From Qipengyuania seohaensis (GTDB lineage: Bacteria; Pseudomonadota; Alphaproteobacteria; Sphingomonadales; Sphingomonadaceae): 64,000 nucleotides of DNA. Shown piece after piece: positions 7,166 through 18,694 of the stretch (positions are counted from its first letter, which is position 1; each line of letters opens with the position of its first letter). A program made the position numbers and the translations under genes. Under the pieces are notes generated by a model. It searched no databases, was not told the DNA's origin, and saw nothing but the letters and a program-made list of their open reading frames with translations. The DNA lies in the NCBI RefSeq assembly GCF_002795865.1, contig NZ_CP024920.1, positions 2,391,001-2,455,000 of the forward strand, read 5' to 3'.

Positions 7166-8067
7166 TCCGTCTGTGCCAGGAAAGCGTCCATTGCCGCATT
7201 TACCGCATCGGGCGCTTCCCACGGCACGAAATGACCGCAATCGGGCACTTCGACGAGAGTCAACTTCTCGACATACTTGCCTAATTCTGCCGTGTTTTCA
7301 GGCGGAAGGGCGAGATCGTCCTGCGCCCAGATAACCAAGGTCGGTATCGTAAGCTTGGGTAGCTCGGGCGGCGACCAGCCTTCGGGCGTTTCGTAAGGCG
7401 CATCGAGCGGCGGGATGTCGATCGGACTTGCGCGATACCATTTCAGCATCGCAAAAGCCGTCTCGCGGTCCTGCCAGTCTTTCAGCAGGATAGCGCGTTC
7501 TTCGGGCTCCATCTTGTCGGGTGCATCCCAGTTGATCTGGTCCTGCAGGATGCCGAACAGGCCGTGCTCTCTTACCAGCTCGTCCTTGGCCGGATCGCGG
7601 AAGCCGCGCATATACTGGCTTGCTTCTCGCTGGACGGGCGATGTGTAGAGCAGTTTCTGGAAGACGGCGTGATGCGGGGCATTGGCGATGACCGCGCGGG
7701 GGACGCGGCCCATCTGTTCGCCAGCCATGGCGACACCCCATGCAATCGCACCGCCCCAGTCGTGACCGACAATTGTGAACTCGCCGATCCCGAGTGCGTC
7801 GGCGAGCAGGAACACATCGCCGACCAGCTTGTCCGGCGTATAGTCCTCTACCTTTTCGGGGGTGCTCGATCCGCGGTAGCCGCGCTGGTCGGGCGCCACG
7901 CAGCGGAAGCGATCCTCGAAATGCGCGATCTGGTTGCGCCAGGTACGGTGGTTCTCCGGAAAGCCATGCAGGAAGATCAGAGCAGGGGCATCGGTTGGCC
8001 CGGTATCGACGACGTCGAGTTCGATGCCATTCGCCAGCGCGACGCGCTTTTGTGGCCAGTTCATCAC
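7162..8067 (-). CDS. Alpha/beta-hydrolase, epoxide hydrolase / haloalkane dehalogenase type
   Basis: 301-residue alpha/beta-hydrolase. HGFPEN (34-39) supplies the oxyanion loop and GHDWGG (101-106) the nucleophile Asp103, which marks the epoxide hydrolase/dehalogenase branch rather than Ser esterases. The catalytic His is in DCGHFVPWE near the C-terminus. The natural substrate cannot be told. The start overlaps the stop of the upstream dehydrogenase (ATGA), so the two are translationally coupled and may act on related small molecules. Confidence 0.9.
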   Translation of the reverse strand: MMNWPQKRVALANGIELDVVDTGPTDAPALIFLHGFPENHRTWRNQIAHFEDRFRCVAPDQRGYRGSSTPEKVEDYTPDKLVGDVFLLADALGIGEFTIVGHDWGGAIAWGVAMAGEQMGRVPRAVIANAPHHAVFQKLLYTSPVQREASQYMRGFRDPAKDELVREHGLFGILQDQINWDAPDKMEPEERAILLKDWQDRETAFAMLKWYRASPIDIPPLDAPYETPEGWSPPELPKLTIPTLVIWAQDDLALPPENTAELGKYVEKLTLVEVPDCGHFVPWEAPDAVNAAMDAFLAQTD

Positions 8068-8879
8068 TCTTCCGCCTGCATTTTTTCCATGTAGCCGGAC
8101 GCGACCATCGCCGCGACCTGGTCGAACAGCGCGTCGGGCGTGCGGCGCATCTCGCCCATCGCTTCTTCCATCCCATCAGCGACAATTATCTCGCGCTGTC
8201 CCTCGGCCACCGCATCGACGATCCGCCGGGCGGCATCTTCGGGACGGATTCCATTGTCGATCACCTTGTCGCTGCGGCCGCGCTTGCTGCCATCGGAGGT
8301 CAGGGCGTTGCGGCTGACATCGGTAGCAACCGATCCGGGACACACGACATGGACGCCGATATCGCTGCGGGACAATTCACCGCGCAAAGCATCGGCATAG
8401 CCGATCAGCCCGTGTTTCGCTGCGCAATAGGCGGTGCGCATGGGCACGCCGACCTTGCCGGCGATCGAGGAGATGAACAGGAGATGCCCGTCGCCGCGTT
8501 CGGCGAAATGCGGTAGCAGTGCCTGTGTCGCGGCGATCTGCGCGGTCAGGTCGATTTCGATAATGTCGCGGTAGACCTGCATCGAAGTCTGGACCGCGGG
8601 GCTGCGCTGCGAAATGCCCGCATTGGCAACGAAGATATCGACACTGCCCTTCCAGCCGATTGCCTGCTCTGTCGCGGCTTGCATCGCCGCTTCGTCGCGG
8701 ACGTCGAACGGGAGGATGAGCGTGTCGGTGTCGAGTCCGGAGGCGACCTCTGCCAGGCGCCCCTCGTCCCGCCCGGAAAGTACCACGTTTGCGCCGCGAC
8801 CTGACCAGTCGCGTGCGAGTGCAGCACCGATGCCGCTACTGGCGCCGGTAATCCAGGCAGTTTTTCCCTCGAAACTCAT
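8064..8879 (-). CDS. Short-chain dehydrogenase/reductase
   Basis: Classical SDR of 271 residues. The cofactor motif TGASSGIG is at 11-18, NAG at 86-88, a catalytic Ser near 137-138, and YCAAK gives Tyr151 and Lys155. No acidic residue follows the second strand in the usual NAD-type place and SGRDEGR carries Arg, so NADPH is more likely; this is inference. Substrate unknown. Upstream partner of the coupled alpha/beta-hydrolase. Confidence 0.93.
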   Translation of the reverse strand: MSFEGKTAWITGASSGIGAALARDWSGRGANVVLSGRDEGRLAEVASGLDTDTLILPFDVRDEAAMQAATEQAIGWKGSVDIFVANAGISQRSPAVQTSMQVYRDIIEIDLTAQIAATQALLPHFAERGDGHLLFISSIAGKVGVPMRTAYCAAKHGLIGYADALRGELSRSDIGVHVVCPGSVATDVSRNALTSDGSKRGRSDKVIDNGIRPEDAARRIVDAVAEGQREIIVADGMEEAMGEMRRTPDALFDQVAAMVASGYMEKMQAEE

Positions 8880-8891
8880 CTGTGTCCCTCC

Positions 8892-9782
8892 TCAAGGATA
8901 GGTGACGGTCTTGGGTGCACCGTCGGGCAATTCGATCCGCTCTTCGCTGTCTCCGGGTACGACCGGAAAGCGGCCCTCGCGCCAATCTTCCTTGGCCTGC
9001 TGGATCCTCTCGCGGCTGGAACTGACGAAATTCCACCAGGCATGGCGATTGCTGCTGAAAGCTTCACCGCCCATCAGCATCACGCGCGCACCCGATTTGC
9101 TTTCGAGCGTCATGTCACGGCCGGGCTGGAGGACGTTGAGCGTATATTTTTCCAGCGGGTGTCCATCTACGCTCGCCTCTCCGCCGACCAACATGAGGGC
9201 CCGTTCGTCGGCGTCTTCTTCGATCGGTATCGCCCCGCCGGCCTCCAGTACGATCTCGGCATAGATCGTTTCCGCATAGGTCGTTGTTGGCGCGCGTTCG
9301 CCCCACAATTCGCCCATGATGACGATGGCCTTGGCGCGGCCGTCTTCGACGATCGGCAAGTCCTTGCGTTCTTCGAAAGCGGGATCGATCTCCTCGCGGC
9401 CATCCGGCAGAGCAAGCCAGGTTTGCATCCCGTAGAGCTTGGGTCCGGCTTTGCGCTCTTCTTCCGGAGAGCGTTCGGAGTGAACGATGCCCTTGCCTGC
9501 AGTCATCAGGTTCACCTGCCCCGGACGGATAGTCGAGAAGCTACCCAGGCTGTCGCGATGGTCGATCGCGCCTTCGAACAGCCAGGTGACCGTCGCAAGG
9601 TTGATGTGCGGGTGCGGGCGCACGTCCATGCCGCTGCCGAGATCGAGCTGGGAGGGGCCGAACTGGTCGACGAAAATAAAGGGGCCGACCATGCTGCGTT
9701 TCTTGGCGGGGAGAACCCGTCGGACCTCGAACTGGCCGAGATCGTGGGTCGTCGGCTGAAGCGTAAGGTCGATCTGGCTCAT
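8892..9782 (-). CDS. Pirin family protein
   Basis: Bicupin of 296 residues. The iron-binding set is visible as RPHPH (His57, His59), His101 and Glu103 (GIVHSE), with the pirin hallmark FIFVDQFGP at 36-44. Some bacterial pirins are quercetin 2,3-dioxygenases and others modulate metabolic enzymes; which applies here is unknown. It ends 12 bases before the SDR gene on the same strand and may be cotranscribed with it. Confidence 0.92.
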   Translation of the reverse strand: MSQIDLTLQPTTHDLGQFEVRRVLPAKKRSMVGPFIFVDQFGPSQLDLGSGMDVRPHPHINLATVTWLFEGAIDHRDSLGSFSTIRPGQVNLMTAGKGIVHSERSPEEERKAGPKLYGMQTWLALPDGREEIDPAFEERKDLPIVEDGRAKAIVIMGELWGERAPTTTYAETIYAEIVLEAGGAIPIEEDADERALMLVGGEASVDGHPLEKYTLNVLQPGRDMTLESKSGARVMLMGGEAFSSNRHAWWNFVSSSRERIQQAKEDWREGRFPVVPGDSEERIELPDGAPKTVTYP

Positions 9783-12297: not shown

Positions 12298-13290
12298 ATG
12301 AACGAGATGACCGACAAGACCTTCGACGCGGCTGCCAAAACCGTCCTTCCCGCACCCGATATCGAGGTGGATGTCCGCGAGACATTCGGCATCGACATCG
12401 ACTGGAAAGTACCGGCGTTTTCCAAGCCTGACGAACGCACGCCTGACCTGGACGAAAGCTATGTGTTCGATCCGGACACGACGCTCGCCATCCTCGCGGG
12501 CTTCGCGCACGATCGCCGCGTGATGGTACAGGGCTATCACGGCACGGGTAAGTCCACCCACATCGAACAGGTCGCAGCCCGCCTCAACTGGCCTTGCATC
12601 CGCATCAACCTCGATGCGCATATCAGCCGTATCGACCTCGTCGGCCGCGATGCCATCGTGCTGCGCGACGGATTGCAGGTGACCGAATTTCGCGAAGGCC
12701 TGCTTCCCTGGGCGCTGCAGCACCCCGTCGCGCTGGTGTTCGACGAATATGACGCTGGCCGCCCGGACGTGATGTTCGTGATCCAGCGCGTGCTCGAACA
12801 GCAGGGCAAGCTCACGTTGCTCGACCAGAACCGCGTGATCCGCCCGGACCCGAACTTCCGCCTGTTCGCCACGGCCAACACGGTCGGCCTCGGCGATACG
12901 AGTGGCCTCTATCACGGCACGCAGGCGATCAACCAGGGCCAGATGGACCGCTGGAACATCGTGGTGGGCCTCAACTACCTGCCCGCCGAAACCGAGCAGA
13001 AGATCGTCGAGGCGAAGAACCCCGACATCGATCCCAAGATCCTCGCCGACATGATCAAGGTCGCCGACCTGTCGCGCCAGGGTTTCATCAATGGCGATAT
13101 CTCGACCGTGATGAGCCCGCGTACGGTGATCACCTGGGCGCAGAATTACGCCATCTTCAAGGATGTCGGCTTTGCCTTCCGCCTCTCGTTCCTCAACAAA
13201 TGCGACGAGGAAGAGCGCATGCTGGTGGCCGAATACTACCAGCGCGTGTTCGGCGAAGACCTGCCCGAAAGCGTGGTCGGGAAGAGTTAA
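12298..13290 (+). CDS. cobS: CobS-type AAA+ ATPase (cobaltochelatase subunit family)
   Basis: 330-residue AAA+ protein. Walker A is GYHGTGKST (79-87), Walker B ALVFDEYD (about 145-152), with sensor and arginine-finger regions after. In aerobic B12 synthesis CobS forms a ring with CobT and drives cobalt insertion by CobN. Here cobT lies about 47 kb away and cobN is not in the window. Start ATG 12298 or the in-frame ATG at 12307. It sits downstream of bolA and dnaJ, as in many Alphaproteobacteria, but with two unrelated genes in between. Confidence 0.93.
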
Positions 13291-13310
13291 GGTTGAGCCC
13301 CCTATGAATG

Positions 13311-13334
13311 ACTGTGTTATTTGTGTAGCACAGT
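13311..13334 (+). promoter_or_regulatory. Inverted repeat just before the PBP start codon
   Basis: ACTGTG and CACAGT are separated by 12 bases and end six bases before ATG 13340, after the cobS stop. As RNA this could be a weak hairpin beside the ribosome binding site; as DNA it could be an operator. The sequence here is locally A+T-rich. No function can be assigned. Confidence 0.35.
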
Positions 13335-13339
13335 AGGTC

Positions 13340-15526
13340 ATGGGCGTACTCGATTCCATCTTTCGCAGACGGCGCGGCGAACCGGCGATGACTTCGCATC
13401 GCGGCTTCTATTCGCTGCACGACGGGTTCGACGACGATGCCTGGGATTCGCGCTGGGACGATCTCGACGATGCGCTCGCCCGCGAAGAGAAGAAGCGCCT
13501 TCGCCCCTGGCAACGGGAGTATTGGCGCGGTCGCCGCAAGCGCTGGTGGGTCGTACGCGCAATCGCCGCGATCCTGGCACTTTTCATAATCCTTGTCGGC
13601 TGGCTGGCGATAACTGCGCCGCTGGGCAAATCGCTAGAGCCGATCGCACCGCCACAGATTACCCTGCTTGCTGCCGACGGGACGCCGATTGCCCGCAATG
13701 GCGCAATTACCGACGAGCCGGTCGATGTCGACCGCCTGCCGGCCCACGTCGTTCAGGCATTCCTCGCGATCGAGGATCGCCGGTTCTACAGCCATTGGGG
13801 TGTCGATCCGCGAGGCATCGCGCGTGCTGCCGTAACCGGCACCGGCGGGGGCAGCACGATCACCCAGCAGCTCGCCAAGTTCACTTTCCTCACTCCCGAG
13901 CGCACGCTGACTCGTAAGGCCCGCGAGGCGATGATCGCCTTCTGGTTGGAAAGCTGGCTGACGAAGGACGAGATTCTCGAACGCTACCTGTCCAACGCCT
14001 ATTTCGGCGACAATGTTTACGGTCTGCGCGCAGCAAGCCTGCATTATTTCTATCGCCAGCCGGAAAACCTGCGGCCGAACCAGGCGGCAATGCTCGCGGG
14101 GCTATTGCAGGCGCCCAGCGCCTATGCACCGACCCGCCATTACGATCGCGCCGAAAAGCGCATGCGCCTGGTCATCCAGTCGATGGTTGCGGCGGGGTAC
14201 ATCACCGAGGCGCAGGCGCGGGCAATGAAGTCTCCCGCGCTCGACGTGCGCATGAAGAGCGACCTTCCGACCGGCACCTATTTCGCCGACTGGGCCCTTC
14301 CCGAAGCACGCCGTTTGACCGAAACCGGTTATTCCCGCCTGACGTTGACCACCACGCTGGACAGCCGGCTCCAGAACATTGCGCGTAATGTGACCAGCCG
14401 TGTGCCCCTGGGCGGAGCGCAGGTGGCACTCGTCGCCATGCGTACTAATGGTGAAGTCGTGGCGATGATCGGCGGCAAGGACTACGCGACTTCTCCGTTC
14501 AACCGGGCAACGCAGGCCGAGCGCCAGTCGGGATCGACGATCAAGACCTTCGTTTACCTCGCCGCGCTGCGCGACGGGTGGAGCCCGGACGACACGATCG
14601 ACAACACCGAGATTACCGAGGGCAGCTATCGCCCGCGCAATGCCAATGGTCGCTACTCTCCTACGATCACCCTGCGCGATGCTCTGGCCCAGTCCAGCAA
14701 TGTCGCGACCCTGCGCCTATTCAACGAGGTGGGGTCGGAAAAGGTCATCGAGACGGTCCGCGATTTCGGGATCACCGGTGACTTCACTCCCGGCGATCCC
14801 AGCATCGCGCTCGGCTCCACCAGCATGAACCTGCTCGAGCTGACCGCGGCCTATGCGGGGATTGCGGCGAATTCATTCCCGGTGAAACCGCACGCCTTTG
14901 CCCAGGAAGAGCGGAACTGGTTCCAGCGCATGTGGGACGGCAACGACAGCCTGAGCAGTTCGACGCATGGCGAAATCGAGGACATGTTGCGAGCCGTCAT
15001 CAACAAGGGGACCGGGCGCCGGGCCATGCTGTCCGGACCGAATTTCGGCAAGACCGGCACCAGCCAGGACAACCGCGACGCCCTCTTCGTGGGCTATGCG
15101 GGCGACCTGGTCGTCGGTGTGTGGATCGGCAATGACGACAACTCTTCGCTCAATGGAATTTCTGGCGGCGGATTGCCCGCGCAAATCTGGCGGAATTTCA
15201 TGACGCAGGCGCTGGGTGCATCGGCTGCACCGGATCGTGCGGGACCGCGCTCCAACGAGGATCCGGGCGGACCAGTCGAACCGCTCGACGTGCCCGACCT
15301 GGAGGATATTCCCTTGGGCGATGGCAATTCGCGCTTGCGGATTCGCGACGGCGAGGCGGTTTTCTCGACCGAGATCGAGGGCATTCCGGTCGATATTCGG
15401 ATTGGAGACGAAGGCGTTTCCATTTCCGAAGAGGCGATCGAAGAAGCGCGGCGCAGGGCCGAAGAGCAACGTAACCAGGCGGTTCGCGAGGAGCTCGAAC
15501 GGCGAGGCGCTCTCGATCCCAATTAG
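13340..15526 (+). CDS. Bifunctional penicillin-binding protein (class A, transglycosylase/transpeptidase)
   Basis: 728-residue class A PBP that polymerises and cross-links peptidoglycan. It has a cytoplasmic N-terminus, one membrane anchor at about 70-92, then a GT51 domain with EDRRFYSHWGVDP (catalytic Glu145) and GGSTITQQLAK. The transpeptidase domain has STIK (Ser399 nucleophile, Lys402), SSN (452-454) and KTGTS further on. The C-terminus is acidic and Arg/Glu-rich, without a recognisable extra domain. PBP1A/1C subgroup cannot be settled by eye. It follows cobS closely on the same strand. Confidence 0.94.
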   Translation: MGVLDSIFRRRRGEPAMTSHRGFYSLHDGFDDDAWDSRWDDLDDALAREEKKRLRPWQREYWRGRRKRWWVVRAIAAILALFIILVGWLAITAPLGKSLEPIAPPQITLLAADGTPIARNGAITDEPVDVDRLPAHVVQAFLAIEDRRFYSHWGVDPRGIARAAVTGTGGGSTITQQLAKFTFLTPERTLTRKAREAMIAFWLESWLTKDEILERYLSNAYFGDNVYGLRAASLHYFYRQPENLRPNQAAMLAGLLQAPSAYAPTRHYDRAEKRMRLVIQSMVAAGYITEAQARAMKSPALDVRMKSDLPTGTYFADWALPEARRLTETGYSRLTLTTTLDSRLQNIARNVTSRVPLGGAQVALVAMRTNGEVVAMIGGKDYATSPFNRATQAERQSGSTIKTFVYLAALRDGWSPDDTIDNTEITEGSYRPRNANGRYSPTITLRDALAQSSNVATLRLFNEVGSEKVIETVRDFGITGDFTPGDPSIALGSTSMNLLELTAAYAGIAANSFPVKPHAFAQEERNWFQRMWDGNDSLSSSTHGEIEDMLRAVINKGTGRRAMLSGPNFGKTGTSQDNRDALFVGYAGDLVVGVWIGNDDNSSLNGISGGGLPAQIWRNFMTQALGASAAPDRAGPRSNEDPGGPVEPLDVPDLEDIPLGDGNSRLRIRDGEAVFSTEIEGIPVDIRIGDEGVSISEEAIEEARRRAEEQRNQAVREELERRGALDPN

Positions 15527-15939
15527 TCCTGCGCCGGCTCCGCCATCAGGACATTCATGACTGCGGTTGCGATGGGGCGCTTGGGATCGTCCTGCCACGC
15601 CTCGACCGTGATGTTCGCGCTGCGGCGACCAAGCTTGGTGACGCGACCTCTGGCGTAACTCTCGCGGCTCTTGCCCGCCGACAGATATTGCACGGTGATG
15701 TTGATCGGCTTGAGCACCGCCTCCCGGTCCTTCTGCGCCAATAGGGCCCGCAGGGCCGCATAGCCTGCAGTCTCCAGCAGCCCACCGGTTGCCCCGCCAT
15801 GGTAATGCTCGGGCCGTCCTTCGACTGCCTCGACGAAGTCCACGCGCATGATCGGCGTGCCGCCGTCCCATTCCGCCAGTTTTATGCCGAGCGAGCGGGC
15901 ATAAGGGGTAAGGACGCTGATGTCGGGATGCTCAGCCAC
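15523..15939 (-). CDS. PaaI-type hotdog thioesterase
   Basis: 138-residue hotdog-fold protein; the central helix HGGATGGLLETAGYAAL matches PaaI-type acyl-CoA thioesterases. It starts with GTG 15939, overlapping the stop of the preceding thioesterase by eight bases. The pair probably forms a heteromeric or sequential thioesterase unit; acyl substrate unknown. It converges with the PBP gene with a four-base overlap. Confidence 0.88.
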   Translation of the reverse strand: MAEHPDISVLTPYARSLGIKLAEWDGGTPIMRVDFVEAVEGRPEHYHGGATGGLLETAGYAALRALLAQKDREAVLKPINITVQYLSAGKSRESYARGRVTKLGRRSANITVEAWQDDPKRPIATAVMNVLMAEPAQD

Positions 15940-16390
15940 CGGGCACCTCCCGCGTGTCGGCTCCGCCGATCTTCATGAAGACGCCCTGGATATGGGCGAC
16001 GGGGTCATCGACGTCGCCGTCATGGGCAAGCCCCCTGACGAAGGCGGCGCTGCGAGTCAGGCGATAACATTGTGAACGACCGAAAACCGATGCGCCTTCG
16101 CGTGCAGGGCGAACGTAATCGACCCTGAGATCGAGCGTAGCGATCGGTTCGAACCGGTTCATCGTTTTCCAGATCGCCAGGCCGCTTGCCATGTCCATGA
16201 GGCTCATGATCGGGCCCGAAGCGAGAACTTGCTGTCCTTCCTCGCCGAGCAGGTCCGTGCGCCATGGGAGGGTGAGTTCAACCCAATCTTCGCCGTGGTC
16301 GGAATAGGCCAGTCCCAGCCAGCCGGAATGCCCCCTGCTGGTGAGGAATGGCGTGGCCGCGCGTGGATCGAAAGTCTCTGTCTTGGTCAT
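15932..16390 (-). CDS. PaaI-type hotdog thioesterase
   Basis: 152-residue hotdog-fold protein, first of a coupled pair. GPIMSLMDMASGLAIW is the central helix with the usual Asp and TLDLRVDYVRPAREG is the following strand region. Likely hydrolyses acyl-CoA thioesters. Start ATG 16390. It diverges from the peptide-cupin unit, with a 138-base gap between the starts in which I see no clear promoter for either side. Confidence 0.88.
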   Translation of the reverse strand: MTKTETFDPRAATPFLTSRGHSGWLGLAYSDHGEDWVELTLPWRTDLLGEEGQQVLASGPIMSLMDMASGLAIWKTMNRFEPIATLDLRVDYVRPAREGASVFGRSQCYRLTRSAAFVRGLAHDGDVDDPVAHIQGVFMKIGGADTREVPGG

Positions 16391-16528
16391 GGTTCGGGGC
16401 GGCGATAGCGCCGGGTTCCCGCAAGTTACAGCCTTTTAATTCGATCCCCGCCCCGCAACGCGCCAGCCAGTGCCGGCGCGGCGAAAGCACGGCACCGACG
16501 CCATGCTCCGCGCAACAGGGAGCACACA

Positions 16529-16690
16529 ATGGATCTTCCCAAGATCGATATTTCCAGCCTGCCGGGCCTCGACACGGTTACCGGTCTCTTCGGCAGCCTT
16601 TCCGCCAATGGCGGTCCGACCGTGGACGATCGCGTGGTCGTGATCATGGTCTACGTCTACGAGACCGTAGAGCCGGAAACTTTCTTCTAA
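16529..16690 (+). CDS. Small peptide, candidate precursor or signal peptide
   Basis: A 53-residue open frame with a good ribosome site (AGGGAG, eight bases upstream of ATG) in an otherwise non-coding gap. It begins MDLPKIDISSLPGLDTVTG, passes through a Gly/Ser/Asn-rich middle (FGSLSANGGPT) and ends in a strongly hydrophobic strand with two Tyr (VVVIMVYVYE) and TVEPETFF. There is no signal peptide or Cys. It lies 15 bases before a cupin-like gene and two cupin genes follow in overlap. That layout resembles a precursor peptide with modifying enzymes. Alternatives are a small structural subunit or a small regulator. I do not recognise the family. Confidence 0.6.
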   Translation: MDLPKIDISSLPGLDTVTGLFGSLSANGGPTVDDRVVVIMVYVYETVEPETFF

Positions 16691-16705
16691 GGTCGGGCAG
16701 ACGCA

Positions 16706-17671
16706 GTGAGGATCGATCCGAAATTGCGCGCGCTGCGAGGTGATTCCGCTTCGCAGCGCAACGCGCAGTTAGCTCTCGAACAGGTTCGCGACGAATGGCG
16801 CAGCGGTGAGGCATTCAATGCGCTCGGCGAGCTTGAAGCCTACGGGGACGGCGCGTCGCTGGATGATTGCCCGACCCTGGAGGCACTCTTCGGCGATGGC
16901 TCAAAAGCGCATGATCTGGTGACGGCACTGATGCAGCCGATGCTGGCCTGTCTGGCCAAGAACCCGACGGGCCAGGTCCCAATCCGTCATCAGCATTCGG
17001 ATGGTCTAAGCGTGCTTCAACTCGCCCAGTCCGGCCGTGCGGCGCTGACGTTGTTGCTGTACACCGAGCTGGGCGGTGCCGAGGCGAAGTCCGCCTGTTT
17101 TGCAGGTGGTGAGCGGCACGAGGCCGTGCTGGCGGGCAGTGCCGACATTCGTTTTCTCGAATTACTCGAAGAGCGGCGGGACAGAGCGGCGATCGATTGC
17201 GACACCCGCCGGATTACCGCTGGCGAGGTGATGCATTTCGCCGGGCGTAACAACACGAAATCCATTTTGAGGGTGCATGGCCGGTTGGCGGTCCTGCGCC
17301 TGTCGAGGACGGACGAGGTGCCCGGCGACGCCTGCGAATATGCGCTGGACGATGGCCGCCTGCTGCACCGGGCGAGCGGTTCGCGTCATGAAAGCGGTCT
17401 TGAAATGAAAGCGGCCTTGCTGGGGCGCATGGGGCGGCGCGATGCGGCTCCGGTCCTTGCCCGGCTCAGCCGCGAGGGCAGCGATCATGCCCGCTGGCAG
17501 GCGCTGCGCGAATGCCTCGCGCTCGACAGTGGACTTGGGTTCGCCGCGCTCACCCGGATGGCCAGCGACCCTGGCGATCCCCTCGCTACGACGGCAGGGA
17601 CACTGCGCGCGCAGCTGCTCGAAACTTATCCCCAGTTAGCCTCACAGGAGCTTGCCGAATGCCCCGCGTAA
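16706..17671 (+). CDS. Cupin-like protein with C-terminal helical repeat region
   Basis: 321 residues, GTG start. The middle (about 85-205) looks like a cupin: RHQHSDG gives His95 and His97, GERHE gives His138, and AGEVMHFAGRNN (172-183) resembles the second cupin motif with His177. The last 90 residues are Ala/Leu/Arg-rich helices (ALLGRMGRRDAAPVLARLS) like HEAT repeats, a possible protein- or peptide-binding arm. No family recognised. It follows the 53-residue peptide by 15 bases and overlaps the next cupin gene by 13 bases. Inferred to be a metal-dependent oxygenase or isomerase, possibly acting on the peptide. Confidence 0.75.
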   Translation: MRIDPKLRALRGDSASQRNAQLALEQVRDEWRSGEAFNALGELEAYGDGASLDDCPTLEALFGDGSKAHDLVTALMQPMLACLAKNPTGQVPIRHQHSDGLSVLQLAQSGRAALTLLLYTELGGAEAKSACFAGGERHEAVLAGSADIRFLELLEERRDRAAIDCDTRRITAGEVMHFAGRNNTKSILRVHGRLAVLRLSRTDEVPGDACEYALDDGRLLHRASGSRHESGLEMKAALLGRMGRRDAAPVLARLSREGSDHARWQALRECLALDSGLGFAALTRMASDPGDPLATTAGTLRAQLLETYPQLASQELAECPA

Positions 17672-18546
17672 TCGATGTAGTCGACACTCAATCGCACGCT
17701 CTTGGAGAGTGCATCGAAATGCTGTCGGGAGGCTTCGATCCCGAAGACGAGTGCAGCCTTTCGAATGCTTCGCTTGCTTTGCGGCGGCTCGCCAATGACC
17801 GCAATTTTCTCGGCGACCTTCTGATCGAACAGCTCAAGCAGAACCATCGCGAAGGCGGCCACGAAAGCGGTTATGGACCACAGGCGATTGTCCTGTCGCC
17901 GAACATGGGCAGTTTCTTCCTGCGCGCGAATATCTGGCCCAGTGAAGACGAGGCCTGCTTCAAGGCCAACGGAGCGAAGGCTTTCGTCTACGGAATTCCG
18001 CACGACCACAATTTCAGCTTTCTGACGGCAGGCTATTTCGGACCCGGCTATCTGAGCGATTACTACGAATACGACTACGAAAGCGTGGCGGGATATAAGG
18101 GCGAAAAGGCAGGGCTGAGGTTTGTCGAGCGGTCCGCCCTGACCGAAGGCAAGCTGATGCTCTACCGCGCCCACCGCGACGTGCACGCCCAACTGCCGCC
18201 GAAAAGCCTTTCGGTCTCGCTTAACGTGATGCACGTCGATCCTGCGAAGGGCTGGTGTGACCAGTACGGCTTCGATCTCGAGAACGAGACCGTTACGGGC
18301 ATTCTCAACCCCACGTCGACCGAGTGCTTCCTGCGCTGCGCCATCGGAATCGGAACCGAAGAAGCGCTGGATTTCGCGGAATGGGTAGGCAGGTCGCACC
18401 CAAGCGACAGGATGAGTCTCGCCAGCTATGAAGCGCGTAGCGGCTTGCTGGACAAGGCTGACCAGGATTTCCTGTGGCGGCGGGCAGAGCAGAGCGGTAG
18501 CATAATGCTTGCGGCCGAAGCAGCTTCGCGAAGAGCTGCGCTCTAG
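17659..18546 (+). CDS. Cupin-like metalloprotein
   Basis: 295 residues. GIPHDHNFSFLTAGYFGPG resembles cupin motif 1 with an HxH pair, and EGKLMLYRAHRDVHAQLPP resembles motif 2 with the third His. The linker between them is Tyr-rich (SDYYEYDYESVAGY). The C-terminal third is helical. The start overlaps the end of the preceding cupin gene (GAATGCCCC), implying coupled translation and probably a complex or a two-step activity. No family recognised by name. It converges with the small membrane-protein gene at 18554, with only seven bases between stops. Confidence 0.75.
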   Translation: MPRVIDVVDTQSHALGECIEMLSGGFDPEDECSLSNASLALRRLANDRNFLGDLLIEQLKQNHREGGHESGYGPQAIVLSPNMGSFFLRANIWPSEDEACFKANGAKAFVYGIPHDHNFSFLTAGYFGPGYLSDYYEYDYESVAGYKGEKAGLRFVERSALTEGKLMLYRAHRDVHAQLPPKSLSVSLNVMHVDPAKGWCDQYGFDLENETVTGILNPTSTECFLRCAIGIGTEEALDFAEWVGRSHPSDRMSLASYEARSGLLDKADQDFLWRRAEQSGSIMLAAEAASRRAAL

Positions 18547-18553
18547 GAGCTTT

Positions 18554-18694
18554 CTACCAAAGGGTTCGGATTGTCAGGACGAAGAGCACGGCGATGACGG
18601 CGAAGGCAAGCAGGCGTAAAATTCTGCGACGTCGGCTCGCCCTGATTTTCGTATTACCTTCGTAGACGTCGAACACGTCGAACAATCCCAGCAT
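18554..18694 (-). CDS. Small single-pass membrane protein
   Basis: 46-residue protein, start ATG 18694. The N-terminus MLGLFDVFDVYEGN is followed by a basic patch (RASRRRRILR) and one transmembrane helix (about 27-43), so the N-terminus should be cytoplasmic. It lies 14 bases beyond ruvX on the same strand and is the last gene of the long minus-strand run. Function unknown. Confidence 0.6.
   Translation of the reverse strand: MLGLFDVFDVYEGNTKIRASRRRRILRLLAFAVIAVLFVLTIRTLW

Follow-up and report, generated by a model that had tools for sequence, protein, structure and literature searches.

Does a 53-codon frame ahead of two adjoining genes for cupin-like proteins encode a peptide that these proteins modify? 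The question is raised by a locus within the window, by which we mean the whole 64,000-nucleotide stretch of Qipengyuania seohaensis DNA analysed here. The initial annotation had read the three genes, here called A, B and C, as a candidate peptide-modification system. We have examined this reading by comparing the locus with its relatives, by predicting the folds of B and C, and by inspecting the gene neighbourhoods of distant homologues.

The A–B–C cassette and its inheritance

The three genes form a single tight cassette (Table 1), with a spacing of 15 bases between A and B and an overlap of 13 bases between B and C; on re-reading the sequence, the coordinates, lengths, gap and overlap given earlier proved exact, as did the mention of a good ribosome site before the peptide, which is the sequence AGGGAG ahead of an ATG. 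Upstream, on the opposite strand, lie two thioesterase-family (4HBT) genes, and downstream lies ruvX. No exporter, protease or regulator was found among the neighbours adjoining the cassette. The genome is a single contig of 2.94 Mb, and the closest named relative, judged by C, is Qipengyuania nanhaisediminis (93% identity). Between C and ruvX there is also a 46-residue frame on the minus strand (18554–18694), which is basic over one stretch and hydrophobic and helix-like at one end; it has no Pfam family and is present at the same place in six of the best 80 of 288 named loci, at 42–94% identity.

Table 1. Features of the cassette, in window positions.
Feature	Position	Strand	Basis
AGGGAG, ribosome-binding site of A	16517..16522	+	sequence reading; relatives have purine-rich sites at the same position
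Gene A, 53-residue candidate precursor peptide	16529..16690	+	conservation, dN/dS
A codons 4–23, constant N-terminal motif, candidate recognition part	16538..16597	+	entropy of residues 2–23
A codons 34–45, constant hydrophobic segment, candidate modification site	16628..16663	+	entropy
A codons 46–53, variable tail	16664..16687	+	entropy
Gene B, GTG start, predicted cupin fold and C-terminal helices, candidate binding partner	16706..17671	+	predicted fold, alignments
Gene C, predicted cupin fold and C-terminal HEAT-like helices, candidate metal oxygenase	17659..18546	+	predicted fold, invariant His
C H115 and H117 codons, candidate metal ligands	18001..18009	+	invariance
C H176 codon, candidate third ligand	18184..18186	+	invariance

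Peptide A was present ahead of B and C in all 23 C-carrying genomes of a first set. A scan of named genomes found 288 relatives, and in the best 80 of these, which were retained, A was present at 78 loci and B at 79. The trio was complete at 78, and the two loci lacking A (L066 and L099) both start at a contig end. No second copy of A above the threshold used was seen at any of these 80 loci. The ratio dN/dS, taken from the nine of 15 pairs with dS below 0.8, was 0–0.24 across close pairs and ∼0.3 in one pair that shows hardly any changes. The presence of A before B and C at 78 of the best 80 loci, together with these low ratios, indicates that A is a real gene under purifying selection. The initial annotation had named three outcomes that would speak against its reading: cupin genes lacking an upstream peptide, a dN/dS near 1, and models without a metal site. 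The first two were looked for and did not appear; the ratios stayed at ∼0.3 or less, and what one genome, G002, revealed was the reverse of the first, a peptide and a broken B with no C. The third was approached through predicted fold and residue conservation. That the 53-codon frame is a chance ORF, for which its small size alone speaks, is refuted by the comparative data, namely its conservation, the conservation of its start site and the selection acting on it, and we give this alternative practically no weight.

The make-up of A was profiled from 100 distinct sequences out of 128 loci in the window's clade. Two blocks are constant, residues 2–23 (mean entropy 1.20 bits) and residues 34–45 (1.11 bits), while the linker at 24–33 (2.63 bits) and the tail at 46–53 (2.71 bits) are variable. 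G22 is invariant, and D34, P12, L14, P4, F21, M40 and Y44 each exceed 90%; 98 of the 100 peptides have no Cys. A constant N-terminus followed by a variable C-terminus had been anticipated. The N-terminal block is indeed constant and the tail variable, but the hydrophobic block is also constant and the linker is not, so that the layout is not plainly that of a leader and a core.

In the first set of 61 genomes, C occurred in the window's own genome and in 22 of 36 others of the same genus, and was absent from all 24 genomes that represent the order's other families. Four of these 23 copies look interrupted or incomplete in the assemblies, with one stop in G019, two pieces each in G006 and G022, and the second half only in G033. 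Wider samples gave C in 88 of 249 genomes of the family, and a C match in 98 of 296 of the order (all in the window's family, two of them remnants comprising only the last 33 codons), in three of 289 of the class (again all in the window's family) and in 13 of 349 of the phylum, three of which lie outside the class, one being marginal at E 0.004.

At the best 80 of the 288 named loci, the second of the two thioesterase genes was found upstream in 69, ruvX downstream in 73, and both in 63, consistent with a cassette inherited mostly in place. At five divergent loci of the same family (L161, L163, L165, L166 and L170) there was no ruvX match, yet the thioesterase pair was still upstream. Of eight same-genus genomes that lack C, seven have the thioesterase genes next to ruvX, with no match to B or C between them; in the eighth, no thioesterase match was found within the fetched piece. 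A search of 41 genomes with the A profile gave 16 strong matches, 15 of them in genomes that carry C. The sixteenth, in G002 (L180 4784–5442), is a decaying copy in which the peptide is present, B has lost its middle and C has no match. The empty sites, the broken G002 copy and the 33-codon remnants of C indicate that the cassette is dispensable, and the comparison of loci indicates that within the window's family it has a long history of inheritance, mostly in place, with repeated loss or breakage.

Predicted folds of B and C

None of the three proteins matched a family in Pfam or NCBIfam above a cut-off; in the same databases neither B nor C matched DUF692 (MNIO) or another known RiPP enzyme family, nor did these searches reveal a leader-binding domain of a known type. 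PADLOC and PHROGs yielded nothing convincing, and a scan of viral contigs yielded no relative. Searches of the open full-text literature, a scope outside which preprints and most subscription papers fall, listed no paper with a title or abstract start that describes the trio.

The predicted structures bear out the earlier description of both proteins as cupin-like, and add C-terminal helical, HEAT-like parts that the initial annotation did not include. The AlphaFold2 model of C (pLDDT 89.3) comprises N-terminal helices, a beta barrel and C-terminal helices. Its top Foldseek matches in the PDB are thiol dioxygenases, the best being mercaptosuccinate dioxygenase (E 2.7e-8), with a TM-score of only ∼0.4 by query length, which places the match mainly in the barrel. 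HEAT_2 was matched at E values up to 1 by seven of 22 C proteins (best 8.1e-5). A PDB sequence search with the genus profile of C gave no match; with the wide C profile it gave 13 weak matches, the best being to artificial alpha-Rep proteins at the C-terminal end of the profile. We therefore describe C as a predicted cupin with HEAT-like helices, whose fold lies nearest to the thiol dioxygenases. H115, H117 and H176 are invariant in 22 aligned C proteins down to 22% identity to that of the window, as are L41, R89, W93, Y111, G128, G130, L161 and S185, and the three His are constant in 127 long sequences, a count that includes 22 further divergent rows. This metal-type triad is a candidate 3-His metal site, as judged by predicted fold and residue conservation.

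B has the same predicted make-up as C (pLDDT 93.1), and its Foldseek matches are to cupins in general. The His motifs noted at the outset fared differently in the two proteins: C keeps an invariant H-x-H...H set, whereas in a 69-row wider alignment of B no His is invariant or nearly so, and a divergent B aligned to the C profile misses the H176 motif. It is thus more probable that B is a partner lacking a conserved metal site than that it is a second oxygenase. Within the genus, H95, H221 and H261 are invariant in a 20-row alignment, so that B of this genus may have a metal or ligand site. A HEAT_2 match in B was weak and below the cut-off (E 0.022), and the genus profile of B matched nothing in the PDB sequence search. 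Comparison of C with B, profile against profile, gave no significant likeness. The wide C profile nevertheless recovered five of the 44 divergent B proteins with E values no higher than 1.4e-5, the matches lying mostly in the C-terminal half; this makes it likely, though not certain, that B is a distant paralogue of C.

Neighbourhoods of distant relatives

Two plasmid records carry C, those of Alteromonas stellipolaris (42.7% identity) and Vibrio sp. ED002 (27.3%), and both annotate their relatives of B and C as hypothetical proteins only. Follow-up scans around three distant genomes found C in 2/274, 5/122, 6/147 and 6/144 genomes, the starting genomes counted. An ORF of at least 150 amino acids precedes C in all 44 divergent cases (one place was fetched twice); against the B profile, 35 of these ORFs passed the inclusion threshold, eight fell below it and one was not listed.

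Among the distant loci looked through, selected ones were screened for exporters by Pfam. The Alteromonas plasmid has, in a row, genes for Yip1, HlyD, an ABC ATPase, a MacB/FtsX permease, two small peptides, B, C, an ABC ATPase and an ABC-2 permease. A second cluster (L221) combines three B–C pairs with four candidate peptides, Yip1, HlyD, an ABC ATPase, a MacB/FtsX permease and an S49 peptidase, as well as a second ABC ATPase and an ABC-2-like permease, the latter below Pfam's cut-off. In the third (L230), HlyD, an ABC ATPase and a MacB/FtsX permease accompany three peptides in tandem, which resemble one another at the N-terminus, along with B, C and an ABC ATPase; a second permease was not identified there. 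The earlier statement that no transporter or protease adjoins the genes therefore holds in the window but not in some distant relatives. In another family (L200 and L222–L225), a Cupin_8 gene adjoins B and C in all five C-carrying genomes, and a conserved peptide of 49–55 codons lies on the strand opposite to B and C, a position that suggests a link with them.

Matches of the distant peptides to the clade A profile were weak (L230, E 0.003–0.01) or absent, and it is by position and general character that they appear akin to A. Their C-terminal segments differ between clades, some carry one Cys, and no shared residue stands out as a target across all peptides, those of the clade included. At 17 of 26 divergent loci, the region upstream contains a frame of 33–65 codons that has a ribosome site and turns hydrophobic towards its end. 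Such a frame occurred in 85 of 2600 dinucleotide shuffles and in 11 of 476 other segments taken from the same loci; this comparison covers 26 of 41 divergent loci under a rule made after most of the peptides had been seen, and is descriptive. Of the nine loci that failed the rule, seven have a small frame whose end is less hydrophobic, and at L231 and L233 no clear candidate peptide was seen.

Individual loci showed further features. L232 has a 63-residue candidate (9502–9693) that carries the motif S-T-x-F-I-F-A-A twice, as in multi-core precursors; close to its N-terminus it has LPDLD, a feature also of the peptides in the window's clade. Near-identical 53-residue frames precede B at L228 (7363–7524) and L229 (9791–9952), and contain a stretch that we take to resemble double-glycine leaders; L229 also has a long frame (12505–17415) that is NRPS-like by eye. 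On the Vibrio plasmid (L197) a short B–C pair (8063–9619) lies near a Tn3-family transposase and restriction-modification genes, and the sole candidate peptide seen overlaps the end of C rather than preceding B. A role in defence was considered for this copy because of the restriction-modification genes; nothing else favours it.

A RiPP-like reading and its rivals

The conserved trio, the selection on A, the triad of C and the distant clusters with several peptides and exporters are best fitted by a RiPP-like peptide-maturation cassette, and we consider it reasonably probable that B binds A and that C, as a metal oxygenase, modifies the hydrophobic C-terminal segment of A. A would then be a precursor whose constant N-terminal motif serves as the recognition part and whose hydrophobic segment is acted upon. 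As a cupin-HEAT protein that lacks a conserved metal site, B would bind A and partner C, and C, a 3-His metal cupin and most likely an iron oxygenase, would act on residues of the hydrophobic segment by means of metal-bound oxygen. In some distant relatives the product would leave through a HlyD/MacB-type pump. In the window's clade, where the core cassette stands alone, processing and export would fall to general machinery, or the product would stay inside the cell. The suggestion of a peptide-modification system thus remains the best fit, with a layout that is not simply leader and core and with B more probably a partner that has no conserved metal site. Several observations weigh against the RiPP-like reading: A occurs as a single copy, and conservation in this clade is as strong in its hydrophobic segment as in its N-terminal motif, which is unusual for a natural-product core; the window's cassette has no exporter, protease or regulator beside it; kinship of the distant peptides with A is a matter of position and character; and neither a target residue common to all the peptides nor, in the Pfam and NCBIfam scans, a known type of leader-binding domain stood out.

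Some of these same observations would suit a different role for A, that of a small structural or regulatory subunit whose hydrophobic strand completes or steadies a B–C metalloenzyme for a small molecule. A is single-copy in the window's clade and always adjoins B and C, its hydrophobic segment is strongly conserved, no exporter lies beside the cassette, and the nearest folds to C act on small thiols; a small-molecule thiol may be the substrate of C. A subunit is harder to reconcile with the surplus of candidate peptides over B–C pairs (two to one on the Alteromonas plasmid, three to one in L230 and four to three in L221), with peptide sequences that are very different in the distant clusters, with the opposite-strand peptide in five genomes, or with the exporters and peptidase of distant clusters, and we regard this role as unlikely, though it is the leading alternative. 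Less probable still is a modification without oxidation, in which C would epimerise or isomerise the V/I-rich segment, by means of its metal or of acid–base residues, into a gramicidin-like membrane peptide. Cupins include isomerases and epimerases, and the segments, being aliphatic, have no reactive side chain in common; the closest folds to C, on the other hand, are 3-His dioxygenases, and nothing in these data supports such a reaction directly. The HlyD/MacB pumps and further ABC transporters of three clusters would also accord with unmodified bacteriocins or signals, for which B and C act as chaperones or immunity proteins. We consider this very improbable, since the invariant triad of C points to catalysis or metal binding and no pump adjoins the genes in the window's clade. 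As for the reaction itself, oxidation of Cys was considered because C has a fold like that of thiol dioxygenases and several distant peptides contain Cys; as a general reaction it is out, as just two of the 100 clade peptides contain any Cys.

Returning to the RiPP-like reading, the cassette resembles known systems in part. With the cupin thiol dioxygenases (mercaptosuccinate, 3-mercaptopropionate-type and cysteine dioxygenases, plant cysteine oxidases and ADO) C shares its predicted barrel and an H-x-H with a later His. It differs from them in lacking a sequence match in Pfam or, by genus profile, in the PDB, in its extra C-terminal helices and low TM-score, and in the near-absence of Cys from the clade peptides. 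RiPP systems in which an oxidative enzyme works with a partner protein, such as an MNIO and its partner, likewise have a short precursor gene, to which A would correspond, with C as the putative metal enzyme and B as the putative partner, and an exporter accompanies some A–B–C relatives. Against this, neither B nor C matches DUF692, the window's genes have no adjoining exporter, and modification is proposed. A dedicated exporter or protease is not part of every known RiPP system.

PbsQ provides a further parallel. It is a cupin-like hydroxylase that acts in a RiPP pathway and has a JmjC-domain protein as a relative, and its cluster also has an MNIO, an arginase and a B12 radical SAM enzyme (PMC12257519). 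There, too, a cupin acts on a precursor peptide, as proposed for C, and the Cupin_8 gene adjoining B and C in five genomes recalls JmjC-type hydroxylases. Unlike PbsQ-type enzymes, C matches neither Cupin_8 nor JmjC, and neither is among the families listed for its 21 relatives.

In conclusion, the conserved trio and the distant export pumps suggest that B and C represent a new type of protein pair, one that carries out the chemical finishing of a peptide. RiPP systems are already known, and the A–B–C trio is a candidate for one rather than a proven case. We tentatively go further and propose, as a possibility somewhat short of an even chance, a new ribosomal peptide class in which a paralogous cupin-HEAT pair, a 3-His enzyme and a partner without a conserved metal site, would make the V/I-rich segment membrane-active or signalling; the export-equipped clusters would secrete the product, and the window's clade would have a domesticated, vertically inherited form with an internal role. 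If the RiPP-like reading is true, a protein pair without a curated family would join the known means of peptide maturation, with chemistry possibly on aliphatic residues, and a function would be given to a gene set present in 88 of the 249 genomes sampled from the window's family. The trio is small and self-contained and comes from an environmental genus, and co-expression makes the question directly testable.
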